Source of the DNA: Rhodobacterales bacterium RIFCSPHIGHO2_02_FULL_62_130 | GTDB lineage: Bacteria; Pseudomonadota; Alphaproteobacteria; Rhodobacterales; Rhodobacteraceae | Length of the DNA: 64,000 nt | Reading direction: 5' to 3' | Assembly: GCA_001828855.1 (NCBI GenBank) | Contig: MHZT01000006.1 | Span: 124,001 to 188,000 of the forward strand | Shown: positions 25,499 through 33,626 of the stretch, piece after piece | How positions within the stretch are numbered: the stretch's first letter is position 1 | Layout of the letters: every line of letters starts with the position of its first letter | The notes under the pieces: generated by a model | What the model was told of the DNA's origin: nothing | The model's input: the letters and a program-made list of their open reading frames with translations, nothing else | Database searches by the model: none | Program-made: the position numbers and the translations under genes

Positions 25499-26584
25499 AT
25501 GCTTTACTTCATCCTACGCCGGTTCGGGGTCATGCTTTTGACCGCCTTGGCGCTGACCTTCATCGTGTTCTATCTGACCAACCTGCCCCCGAATTTGGAA
25601 AAACTCGCCAAATCCGAGGCTTCTGCCCGCATGACCGATGAAGACGTGGCAAGCTGGATCGAGAAGAACGGCTATGCCACGCCGGTGCTGCGCCGCTATG
25701 GCGAATGGCTGGGTGTGATGCCCGGCTGGACCATGCTGCAAGAGGATGGAACCACGCGCGGCCGCTGCATTGCGGTCGGCAGCGATCCGGCGGCGGCCCC
25801 CCGCTTCTGCGGTCTGGTGCAAGGCACATGGGGCAAATCCACCGTGTTCAAGGAACCGGTGCAGAAAATTCTGGGCCGCGGCCTAAGCCAGACCGCATGG
25901 CTGATGCTGGCGGTGATGCTGGTGATGGTGCCGACCTCGCTGCTGCTGGGGGTGCTGTCGGGCATGCGCGAAGGATCAAAGCTTGACCGCGTGCTGTCCA
26001 CCATCGCCATCGCCTCGACCGCCACGCCGGAATATGTGTCGGGCGTGATTCTGGTGGCGCTGTTTGCTTCGGCCACGGCGGGCCTGTCCCCCATTCTGGC
26101 CGATTGGGGCTGGATTTCCGGCAAGACCCTGTTCCAAGGCACCGCCACCTCTGCGATGGACGACATCACCTTCTGGAACTTCGCGCTGCCCGTCGCCACC
26201 ATCGCGCTTTACGGCATCGGCTATATCGCCCGCATGACGCGCGCCTCGATGACCGAGGTGATGACGCAGCAATATATCCGCACCGCCCGCCTGAAAGGCG
26301 TGGCCTTCCGCGATGTGATCCTGCGCCACGCCCTGCGGAATGCGCTGATCGCCCCCTTTACCGTGATCATGCTGCAATTCCCGTGGCTGCTGAACGGCGT
26401 GGTGATCGTAGAGACCCTGTTCAACTACAAAGGCTTCGGCTGGACGCTGGTGCAAGCCGCCGGCAATAACGACATCGAGCTGCTGCTGGGCTGTTCGGTC
26501 GTGGCCGTCCTTGTTGTTCTGGTGACGCAGTTGATGTCCGACATCGGCTATGTGTTCCTGAACCCCCGCATCCGGCTTTCATAA
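25499..26584 (+). CDS. Peptide/nickel-type ABC transporter permease (DppB-like)
   Basis: This 361-residue membrane protein begins MLYFILRRFGVMLLTALALTF, the usual first transmembrane helix of DppB-type permeases. A large periplasmic loop follows (about residues 35-125). The core then has GIGYIARMTRASMTEVMTQ and YIRTARLKGV, the cytoplasmic coupling segment (about 240-270). It forms the channel with the DppC-like partner 10 bp downstream. The periplasmic loop is larger than in E. coli DppB. Confidence 0.93.
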   Translation: MLYFILRRFGVMLLTALALTFIVFYLTNLPPNLEKLAKSEASARMTDEDVASWIEKNGYATPVLRRYGEWLGVMPGWTMLQEDGTTRGRCIAVGSDPAAAPRFCGLVQGTWGKSTVFKEPVQKILGRGLSQTAWLMLAVMLVMVPTSLLLGVLSGMREGSKLDRVLSTIAIASTATPEYVSGVILVALFASATAGLSPILADWGWISGKTLFQGTATSAMDDITFWNFALPVATIALYGIGYIARMTRASMTEVMTQQYIRTARLKGVAFRDVILRHALRNALIAPFTVIMLQFPWLLNGVVIVETLFNYKGFGWTLVQAAGNNDIELLLGCSVVAVLVVLVTQLMSDIGYVFLNPRIRLS

Positions 26585-31821: not shown

Positions 31822-32184
31822 ATGAACCAGCCGCAGGACTCGATCGAGGGCGCGCCCCTGATCCGCCCATCGACCACCGACCACCCGCTTTACGACTCTG
31901 TGGTCGAGGCTTGCCGCACGGTGTTCGACCCTGAAATTCCGGTCAATATCTATGACTTGGGGCTGGTCTATACCATCGACATCAGCCCCGAGAACGAGGT
32001 CGAGATCCTGATGACCCTGACCGCCCCCGGCTGTCCGGTGGCCGGTGAGATGCCGGGTTGGGTTCAGGATGCGGTCGAACCTGTGGCGGGCGTCAAGCAG
32101 GTGAATGTCGGCATGACCTTCGATCCGCCTTGGGGGATGGAGATGATGTCTGACGAGGCGCGGCTGGAACTGGGGTTCATGTAA
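31822..32184 (+). CDS. sufT: DUF59/MIP18-type Fe-S assembly factor (SufT-like)
   Basis: This 120-residue protein has the DUF59 core: VVEACRTVFDPEIPVNIYDLG (slightly over one motif, about residues 26-46), LTLTAPGCPVAGEMPGW with the conserved Cys (about 70-86) and VGMTFDPPWGMEMMSDEARLE (about 98-115). SufT proteins help mature iron-sulfur proteins and often close suf operons. Here the gene is separate from suf genes, but an A-type carrier lies 1.5 kb downstream. The frame is open back to 31708, but the ATG at 31822 gives the family length and lies 10 bp after the promoter palindrome. Confidence 0.88.
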   Translation: MNQPQDSIEGAPLIRPSTTDHPLYDSVVEACRTVFDPEIPVNIYDLGLVYTIDISPENEVEILMTLTAPGCPVAGEMPGWVQDAVEPVAGVKQVNVGMTFDPPWGMEMMSDEARLELGFM

Positions 32185-32186
32185 GC

Positions 32187-32291
32187 GCAAGCCGCAAGGA
32201 TTGCACAGATAGCAGGCAAGTCTATGGGCTTGCAAGATTACTAAGCAAGCCCTCAGGCTTGCAAAAAGACGATGCAAGTGTTAAGACTTGC
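32187..32291 (+). promoter_or_regulatory. Four phased palindromic operators with 29-bp period
   Basis: Four 18-bp sites of the form GCAAG-N8-CTTGC lie at 32187-32204 (right arm ATTGC), 32216-32233, 32245-32262 and 32274-32291. Their centres are exactly 29 bp apart each time. The N8 and 11-bp linkers differ between units, so only the palindrome arms and the spacing are kept. A possible -35 TTGCAA (32259-32264) overlaps the third site, and the last site ends 2 bp before the ATG of the SatD-like gene. The layout is that of a repressor array. Confidence 0.75.
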
Positions 32292-32293
32292 AC

Positions 32294-32920
32294 ATGAAAC
32301 CTCAAGCCGCAGTTCTGACCGGTGACCTGATCGACTCGACCCTTGCCGGTCCCGAGGCGGTTGCAAATGCCATGCAGGCCATTGCCGCAGCCGTGCAATC
32401 GGTGGATGGCGCACGCTTTGACCGGTTTCGGGGGGATGGCTGGCAAGCCTATTGCGACAATGCATGTGATGCTTTCCGCCTGACGGTGCTGGTTCTGGCT
32501 GCGCTGCGCGCCCGTCCCGATTTGCCGCAGACCCGTCTGGCCGTGGCCACAGGACCAACCGATCCACTGCCCGCGACAGGGCTGGCCGGTGCCAGCGGCG
32601 CGGCCTTTGTGTTGTCGGGACAGATGCTTGATGCAATCGGGCGCGAACGCCTCATGTTCATGGGAATCTCGGATCTGGCAATTTGGCAAAGACCCCTGTT
32701 TTCCTATCTGGATTGGCAATCGGCACGCTGGACTGCCCAACAGGCCGAAGCTGTCTTGATTGCCTTTCGGCATGATCCCCCAAGGCCGCGTGACGTGGCC
32801 GAAACACTGGGCATCAGCCGACAGGCAACGGAAGCCCGCCTGAAGGGCGCAGGCTATGCGCCGCTTGCCGCTTCGATCACGGCCTTTCAGATTACACCCG
32901 AGGGCCACCCCCATGATTGA
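32294..32920 (+). CDS. SatD-like protein with C-terminal helix-turn-helix
   Basis: This 208-residue protein has an N-terminal domain with TGDLIDS (about residues 9-15) and RFRGDGWQAY (about 45-54). These two Asp-bearing motifs sit as the metal-site Asp residues do in cyclase/polymerase palm folds. The C-terminal part (WTAQQAEAVLIAF, then VAETLGISRQATEARLKGAG, about 150-195) is a helix-turn-helix of sigma-region-4 type. This matches the SatD family, whose biochemistry is unknown. It overlaps the DUF3307 gene by 8 bp. There is no ribosome site, so a leaderless message is possible. An in-frame TTG lies at 32288. Autoregulation through the phased sites upstream is my inference. Confidence 0.75.
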   Translation: MKPQAAVLTGDLIDSTLAGPEAVANAMQAIAAAVQSVDGARFDRFRGDGWQAYCDNACDAFRLTVLVLAALRARPDLPQTRLAVATGPTDPLPATGLAGASGAAFVLSGQMLDAIGRERLMFMGISDLAIWQRPLFSYLDWQSARWTAQQAEAVLIAFRHDPPRPRDVAETLGISRQATEARLKGAGYAPLAASITAFQITPEGHPHD

Positions 32921-33626
32921 AACCCTGACCGCGCTGTTGTTCGCCCATATCGTCGCGGATTTCGTGCTGCAAACCCGCTGGATGGTGGAAAACAAGTCGC
33001 GGGTGGCTGGTCTGGCGGTGCATGGGGCGCTGGTGGGGGTAACGGCGGGGCTGACCTTGGGCGGTCTGTCTTTGGCGGTGCTATGGCTGGCAGGAATGCA
33101 TCTGCTGACCGATTATGCAAAGACCCGCGCACCAAAGGGGCTGGCAGCTTTTGCGGCCGATCAGGCGGCGCATCTGGTCACCCTTCTGGCACTGGCGCTA
33201 TGGCAGCCGGACTTGTGGCAGGCGGGGCTTTGGGCGGGACGGGCGGATTGGGTGCTGCCGGTCATGGCTGTAACGGGCGGCGCAATCCTTGCCACACGGG
33301 CGGGCGGTTTTGCGATCGGGATGCTGATGGCGCCGTTCGTGGCAGCCTCGCCCGATGGGTTGACAGGTGGCGGGCGGGTGATCGGCCTGCTGGAGCGCGG
33401 GTTGATCTTTGCGATGATCCTGCTGGGCCAGCCCGAGGGCGTGGGCCTTTTGATCGCCGCCAAATCCATCCTGCGCTTTGGCGCGGTCAAGGATGACAGG
33501 GCGGCCTCGGAATATGTCATCATCGGCACGCTGGCATCCTTTGGCTGGGCGATGATCGCGGCACATGCGACGCTGGCGCTGACTTCTTTGCTGCCGCCGC
33601 TTGGAATCTTGCCCGCGACGCCCTAG
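32913..33626 (+). CDS. DUF3307 membrane protein
   Basis: This 237-residue polytopic protein has the DUF3307 signature at its start, HIVADFVLQTRWMVENKSR (about residues 11-29), then HLLTDYAKTRAPK (about 64-76), with conserved His and Asp facing the membrane boundary. About six hydrophobic helices follow. The ATG at 32913 lies inside the end of the SatD-like gene (8-bp overlap), so both are made together. SatD/DUF3307 adjacency recurs in bacteria, but no function is known. A membrane enzyme or channel controlled by the SatD-like partner is one reading. Confidence 0.82.
   Translation: MIETLTALLFAHIVADFVLQTRWMVENKSRVAGLAVHGALVGVTAGLTLGGLSLAVLWLAGMHLLTDYAKTRAPKGLAAFAADQAAHLVTLLALALWQPDLWQAGLWAGRADWVLPVMAVTGGAILATRAGGFAIGMLMAPFVAASPDGLTGGGRVIGLLERGLIFAMILLGQPEGVGLLIAAKSILRFGAVKDDRAASEYVIIGTLASFGWAMIAAHATLALTSLLPPLGILPATP

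Follow-up and report, generated by a model that had tools for sequence, protein, structure and literature searches.

Helix-turn-helix (HTH) repressors that regulate themselves through tandem operators placed over their promoter are a general, known kind of regulator. For the SatD and DUF3307 families the record is much shorter. Among the papers listed on the SatD family, DUF3307 and cyclase-domain HTH regulators, we found no description of a SatD regulator, of an operator array of this kind or of a DUF3307 function, and no functional study of either family beyond one that links satD to acid tolerance in Streptococcus mutans. According to PMC11323703, satD scored as essential when three emm types of S. 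pyogenes were screened with transposons, and only about 71% of complete genomes carry it; the same paper cites acid-tolerance work in S. mutans. Here we describe a row of dyads upstream of a gene pair for a SatD-like protein and a DUF3307 membrane protein, in a stretch of 64,000 nucleotides that was analysed as a whole (the window). We consider it highly probable that these dyads are operators of the SatD-like protein, and that they control its own operon and above all DUF3307; the last of them would lie on the promoter, with repression when the row is filled.

Sites, setting and rarity of the array

The 109-bp gap between the FeS_assembly_P gene and the gene for the SatD-like protein is filled by four dyads lying exactly 29 bp apart (Table 1). 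The genes following the array encode the SatD-like protein, the DUF3307 protein, an Fe-S_biosyn protein and triosephosphate isomerase, in that order, with an 8-bp overlap between the first two. The original prediction had described these four sites, their 29-bp period and the ATTGC right arm of the first, all of which were confirmed in the sequence. At 10.5 bp per turn, 29 bp amounts arithmetically to 2.76 helical turns, or about a quarter turn between neighbours.

Table 1. Features of the locus, with positions counted from the first nucleotide of the window
Feature	Position	Strand	Remarks
FeS_assembly_P (PF01883) gene	31822-32184		Upstream neighbour of the array
Dyad site 1	32187..32204	.	GCAAGCCGCAAGGATTGC; right arm imperfect; 2 bp past the stop codon of the upstream gene
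Dyad site 2	32216..32233	.	GCAAGTCTATGGGCTTGC
Dyad site 3	32245..32262	.	GCAAGCCCTCAGGCTTGC
Dyad site 4	32274..32291	.	GCAAGTGTTAAGACTTGC; core with the T9-A10 conserved in last sites; ends 2 bp upstream of the SatD-like ATG at 32294
SatD-like protein, 208 aa	32294..32920	+	Class III nucleotidyl-cyclase-like N-terminal domain and C-terminal HTH (both predicted)
Asp11 codon	32324..32326	+	Invariant in 65 relatives; aligns with the Asp of the Ma1120 FTD motif
Asp48 codon	32435..32437	+	Invariant in 65 relatives; aligns with the Asp of the Ma1120 GDG motif
Recognition helix, residues 176-185	32819..32848	+	Predicted in the AlphaFold2 model; Arg176 codon at 32819-32821
DUF3307 membrane protein, 237 aa	32913..33626	+	PF11750, E 2.9e-12; partner and likely target

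Single dyads of this type are not rare. The exact pattern GCAAG-N8-CTTGC occurs 28 times genome-wide, compared with 13 times for a reversed control pattern, and with up to two mismatches it occurs 55 times in the window, which is chance level (mean 50.7). What is rare is a pair of sites at 29 bp: the genome-wide search for further copies that had been proposed earlier found such a pair, at up to two mismatches, at no second place in the 4.97 Mb of the genome, the hits at the array being three overlapping pairs with 0, 0 and 1 mismatch. Allowing three mismatches added one further place, with none for the reversed control. Elsewhere in the window, at 26161-26339 on the minus strand, Rfam identifies the Ruegeria cis52 sRNA (Cis52_sRNA, RF02647) with 87.8 bits against a gathering score of 56.

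Conservation of the spacing in relatives

Of 295 genomes from the same family, 68 had a match to the SatD-like protein, three of the matches (G276, G012 and G178) being weak and partial; in a second, overlapping draw the figure was 89 of 394 genomes, including weak short matches (G103, G137, G160 and G988). These weak matches were left out of the loci, and a partial gene (L140) was left out of the analysis. The sole genome of the same genus listed had no match. The 66 loci studied comprise 65 from the 295-genome draw, plus L041, the locus of the window being among them.

A pair of dyads 28-30 bp apart precedes satD in 58 of the 66 loci at p ≤ 0.02, as judged from 100 dinucleotide shuffles per locus, and this spacing class exceeded all eight other classes tested in 57 loci, with two ties. 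In at least two of the 58 the scored pair is off the mark: in L044 it differs from the site pair found later, and in L062 it is phase-shifted. Without restriction of the distance between dyads, a peak emerged at 29 bp (14 pairs, compared with 0.06 in shuffles), and a second one at 58 bp (7 pairs, compared with 0). Among the eight loci with no significant pair before satD, L030, L067, L069 and L074 carry one in the gap between satD and DUF3307 (p 0.01) and L037 does so at p 0.03; L048 has a good pair in this gap whose first site overlaps the end of satD, so that it fails the gap test. L045 shows one full site and, by eye, a half-site 29 bp further on; for L046 (p 0.03) a chain search found three sites ahead of satD. 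This search, which admitted spacings of 27 to 31 bp only and used site weights trained on the same loci, gave 1 to 6 sites per locus and 104 spacings between neighbours: 29 bp in 74 cases, 30 bp in 16, 28 bp in 12 and 27 bp in 2. Sites in L048, L061, L069 and L076 were set by hand from the sequence. As the upstream neighbour seems, by eye, to be other than the FeS_assembly_P gene in L013, L035, L036 and L049, the array follows satD and not that gene.

The pitch is constant and the arm sequences vary by clade, the types including GCAAG, TCAAG, GAAAG, GCAACC or GCACCC, ACAGG, ACAGC and ACAAC, among others. Conservation in close relatives had been named as a test on which the prediction could fail; the comparison did not refute it, the period being kept, though the letters of the motif change between clades. 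Judged by sequence comparison, the array is a conserved control element in many related bacteria. These observations also bear on the idea that it is a recent, functionless tandem duplication of a 29-bp unit, as the constant period in the window might suggest. The linkers and cores differ between repeats and the arms stay dyad-symmetric, as the original prediction had already argued, and in relatives the pitch persists while the arms change. We therefore rejected a functionless duplication, which is contradicted by this conservation and retains a negligible probability.

Some loci depart from the common pattern. Eight of them (L047, L051, L057, L059, L061, L062, L063 and L073) combine a helix of the form SRQxVTK(S/A)L and GCAxCC-type or similar arms with a pitch of 30 instead of 29 bp. 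Pitch and helix type may change together; exceptions are L043 (30 bp with another helix) and L135 (a related helix with a 29-bp pair). In L138 the SatD-like protein is devoid of both GD motifs, one clear site lies upstream, and an Fe-S_biosyn-like start stands in place of DUF3307 (by eye, 110 nt); this is apparently a decaying copy.

Distant relatives and the viral collection

Of the eight distant SatD proteins analysed, two belong to other families of the class and two to other parts of the phylum; one is a divergent copy inside the family, two come from plasmid records of Gammaproteobacteria (Pseudoalteromonas and Salinivibrio) and one from a contig of a viral collection. A dyad pair at 28-29 bp was detected in six of the eight loci at p 0.005, in L139 at p 0.025, with its best 28-30 bp pair scoring below the best pair at another spacing, and in L142 at p 0.055. 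Their arms, such as GACCC..GGGTC or GTAAC..GTTAC, are unlike those of the window. The viral-collection contig (L123) carries a SatD/DUF3307 pair with ACAGC-type dyads spaced by 29 bp, next to an ORF which we take to resemble a phage head protein. In the eight-locus test its top pair at widths 16-18 is linker; when the sites are taken as 18 bp wide, ACAGCCCATACCGGTTGT and ACAGCCTAAATTGGTTGT rank highest, spaced by 29 bp (p 0.01). L123 was the one contig with the pair found in the viral collection; a second scan returned it again, and a third scan no relative. Outside the family, no full-length close homologue was among the matches in 385 genomes from the class.

The SatD-like protein and its DUF3307 partner

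The AlphaFold2 model of the SatD-like protein has a mean pLDDT of 92.3. Foldseek comparison with the PDB gave 33 matches at E ≤ 0.001, all of them nucleotidyl cyclases (adenylyl, guanylyl and one cUMP synthase), with TM-scores by query length of 0.40-0.49 in a listing that gives no aligned range. An hmmsearch against the PDB aligned residues 4-98 with the cyclase Ma1120 (E 0.0019); for residues 153-203 the match was to a zinc transport regulator (E 0.0016). The Pfam model MarR_2 was matched by 13 of 65 relatives at E ≤ 0.01. Two invariant aspartates align with those of the FTD and GDG motifs of Ma1120 (Table 1), which are presumably its metal ligands. According to the model, the N-terminal domain has a predicted class III nucleotidyl-cyclase fold with both metal-binding Asp.

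The Pfam SatD model (PF16264, curated cut-off 29 bits) gave no hit for the window protein, and matched two of 65 relatives at E ≤ 0.01 (best E 0.0011). When the profile of the 65 relatives was aligned by hhalign with four PF16264 members that are all above the cut-off (L089, L090, L091 and L139; 42-60 bits), the match extended over 198 columns (probability 98.5, E 3.2e-15), and we therefore take the window protein as a divergent branch of the SatD superfamily. PADLOC returned no hits for the SatD-like protein or DUF3307 at E ≤ 0.1.

The DUF3307 protein is modelled by AlphaFold2 with nine helices (pLDDT 92.4). Its fold had no match in the PDB at E ≤ 0.001, and tblastn found no match to it in the phage collection at E ≤ 0.001; by profile, PHROG 2470, a membrane protein of the moron group, matches it. 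Its C-terminal half (33372-33539) lies outside the Pfam match and contains the very conserved motifs G..IG..ER, KS..R and EYV.IGTLAS. In L089, the distant SatD has a neighbour in which, by eye, this half is set in another context. PF11750 is present in 42 of 120 family genomes, where, besides the copy adjacent to satD, other copies occur elsewhere in shorter open frames of about 130-200 aa.

Linkage of the array to satD and DUF3307

A DUF3307 start, with the motif H-x3-D-F/Y-x2-Q, follows satD in 79 of 82 loci, a count that leaves out L138, L139 and L040. Where the two genes overlap or are less than 40 bp apart, the dyad pair is before satD in all 52 loci. Where the gap is at least 40 bp (27 loci), a pair is found in the gap in 17, before satD in 15 and at both places in 10, so that 22 loci have at least one, and five have a significant pair neither before satD nor in the gap. 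Loci with ACA- arms carry the array mostly before DUF3307 only; autoregulation is therefore not universal and, since in some loci the array precedes DUF3307 only, DUF3307 would be a steadier target than satD.

The searches for further target genes used patterns that cover GCAAG-type arms only. Across the 295 family genomes, a GCAAG-type pair with up to two mismatches was found at 54 places in 30 genomes, 52 of these places lying, by coordinates, at a satD locus, which for such arms indicates a dedicated circuit. The other two, in G173 (G173:C1) and in G074, the single genome with a match but no satD hit, look like chance, as the reversed control also produced one match each in G130, G173 and G188. 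For GCAAG-type arms, a wider regulon was considered and rejected, the only candidates being these two chance-like places and the single extra place in the window's own genome at three mismatches.

Co-variation of arm and recognition helix

In the first 65 loci, all 47 that have Arg176 show G as the first arm base, and none of the other 18 does (Fisher 2e-16, uncorrected for kinship). A scan of protein columns ranked residue 176 first (z 26.7) and residue 182 next (9.6), both within the helix predicted at 176-185. The second draw contributed 19 further loci, of which the 17 scored all fit the rule (13 with Arg and G, 4 with neither), bringing the table to 60 of 60 loci for G with Arg and 22 of 22 for not-G with not-Arg. 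This table leaves out L139 (distant type) and L126, where Arg176 goes with mixed G and T half-sites; L040, whose gene is cut short, was left out of the residue tests. A finer rule with three states was broken once, by L137, where Pro176 goes with A arms. For the 17 added loci, arm labels were assigned manually; the automatic pair is phase-shifted in L131, the gap pair is not significant in L132 and L137, and L138 has p 0.03 with one real site.

The association was also followed on a tree of the N-terminal domain, where seven changes of arm base 1 and seven changes of residue 176 fall on the same seven of 162 branches (2e-12); the reconstruction used parsimony, and the internal branches concerned are supported at 0.75 to 0.99. 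The best other protein column gave p 0.03. Moreover, distances between recognition helices track distances between arms after correction for the N-domain (partial r 0.25, p 0.004), and neither the helix before (p 0.98) nor the helix after it (p 0.53) does so. An earlier distance scan had placed residue 178 first and residue 176 eighth; it skipped three loci and used wrongly called arms for L044, L046 and L062.

Residue 176 stands at the beginning of the predicted recognition helix, so that the reader of the array is very likely the SatD-like protein itself, and the co-variation suggests a contact between Arg176 and the outermost G of each arm. The proposal that the SatD-like protein is the regulator is thus strongly supported by conservation together with the co-variation of arm and recognition helix. 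The array might instead be read by another regulator encoded elsewhere, given that the evidence for SatD-like binding is computational. Against such a regulator, arm base 1 and residue 176 change on the same seven branches, where the best of the other columns scanned gives p 0.03, and 29 of the 30 genomes with a GCAAG-type pair fall within the 68 of the 295 genomes that have a satD match; we consider it very improbable. The co-variation identifies the reading protein and says nothing on the sign of the regulation.

Promoter, alternatives and proposed mechanism

The position and core of the last site bear on that sign. In 58 loci (left out were L061, L076 and six others whose array sits in the gene gap), the last site ends -1 to 4 nt from the start codon in 39 and further away in 19. 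Last sites have a TA core in 48 of 58 cases and other sites in 38 of 101 (p 3e-8), and they also score higher for TATAAT (p 4e-7). The earlier statement that the eight central positions are not conserved therefore does not extend to the last site in relatives, where T9 and A10 reach 0.72 and 0.76, compared with 0.47 and 0.41 in other sites; positions 6 and 13 of the last site also pair more than expected. In the window, a candidate -35 element, TTGCAA (32259-32264), takes its TTG from the right arm of site 3, and a weak candidate -10, TAAGAC (32282-32287), follows after 17 bp in the core of site 4, 6 nt before the ATG. The overlap of a -35 with the third site that had been suggested is thus present in the letters, and a consensus scan of 32150-32350 found no sigma-70 promoter above threshold. 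The TA core of the last site and its abutment on the start codon would fit a -10 region within the last operator and a leaderless message, and hence repression by occupancy.

The same dyads could act as RNA hairpins in a 5' leader that controls translation or RNA stability. Indeed, the array strand folds better than shuffles (z -4.5) and each dyad can form a hairpin, but a low folding energy is expected of any dyad array. An excess of G-T was seen at pair 8-11 of the non-last sites (0.16, compared with 0.09 expected), but G-T is at or below expectation at all other pairs, and an excess confined to one inner pair speaks against an RNA function. Moreover, the 39 close last sites leave too little space for ribosome binding outside the dyad: Shine-Dalgarno-like letters occur inside the dyad in 7 of them, and a Shine-Dalgarno-like core lies between array and start in 11 of the 19 loci with longer distances. 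The arms co-vary with a protein helix, and an Rfam search of the whole window at gathering thresholds found no match in the array. The RNA leader, to which the folding and pair co-variation tests give no support, was rejected as hardly credible.

More weight is due to the alternative of a SatD-like protein that binds the array as an activator, or that either represses or activates depending on its nucleotide. Several upstream sites would also suit activation, the candidate promoter of the window is weak, and a cyclase-like domain allows a ligand switch. However, the last dyad mostly touches the start codon and carries the expected -10, and an operator at the -10 or start position usually blocks the polymerase. 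We therefore consider this alternative unlikely, and infer repression.

Repression by the SatD-like protein would proceed as follows. Each 18-bp dyad would bind one dimer through the C-terminal HTH, with Arg176, at the start of the recognition helix, reading the outermost G of each arm, and the constant pitch of 28-30 bp would bring neighbouring dimers into contact, presumably with cooperative binding. On the promoter, the TA core of the last dyad would provide the -10 region and the TTG of the preceding right arm could serve as -35; transcription would start at or near the ATG, yielding a leaderless message, and a filled array would shut the promoter. Given the predicted cyclase fold with both metal-binding Asp, a nucleotide would be the likely signal at the N-terminal domain. 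A bolder version, which we hold to be possible but on balance doubtful, is that SatD proteins at large are transcription factors whose cyclase-fold domain binds or makes a nucleotide messenger that loads or unloads a wound row of these proteins on operators pitched at 28-30 bp, so releasing production of the membrane protein DUF3307. In such a row, with about a quarter turn per neighbour, four dimers would by arithmetic nearly close a full circle round the DNA.

Comparison with known systems

If these readings hold, they would provide a first role for two protein families with almost no known function, SatD and DUF3307. SatD-type proteins would gain a concrete molecular role as DNA-reading regulators with a cyclase-fold domain and a named target, DUF3307. 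The loci also form a natural series of matched protein and operator variants, in which a rule of one residue and one base is open to direct test, and an operator row that keeps its pitch and changes its letters would be a clean system for spacing-dependent cooperativity on DNA.

The members of PF16264, named for SatD of the Streptococcus sat operon, share full-length profile homology with the relatives of the window protein, and the four members L089, L090, L091 and L139 have upstream dyad pairs at 28-29 bp (p 0.005 in the first three, 0.025 in L139), as the window family does; the window protein itself falls below the model. With class III nucleotidyl cyclases such as Ma1120 and Rv1900c, the SatD-like protein has in common the predicted N-terminal fold and both metal Asp, but its predicted cyclase-like domain is followed by an HTH. 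Finally, the locus resembles autoregulating HTH repressors with tandem operators in having dyads at the probable promoter of the regulator's own operon and apparently one target locus. In contrast to them, the SatD sites, two to six in number, keep a pitch of 28-30 bp across wide divergence while the arm letters change, a cyclase-fold domain is the likely sensor, and at some loci only the partner gene is preceded by the array.
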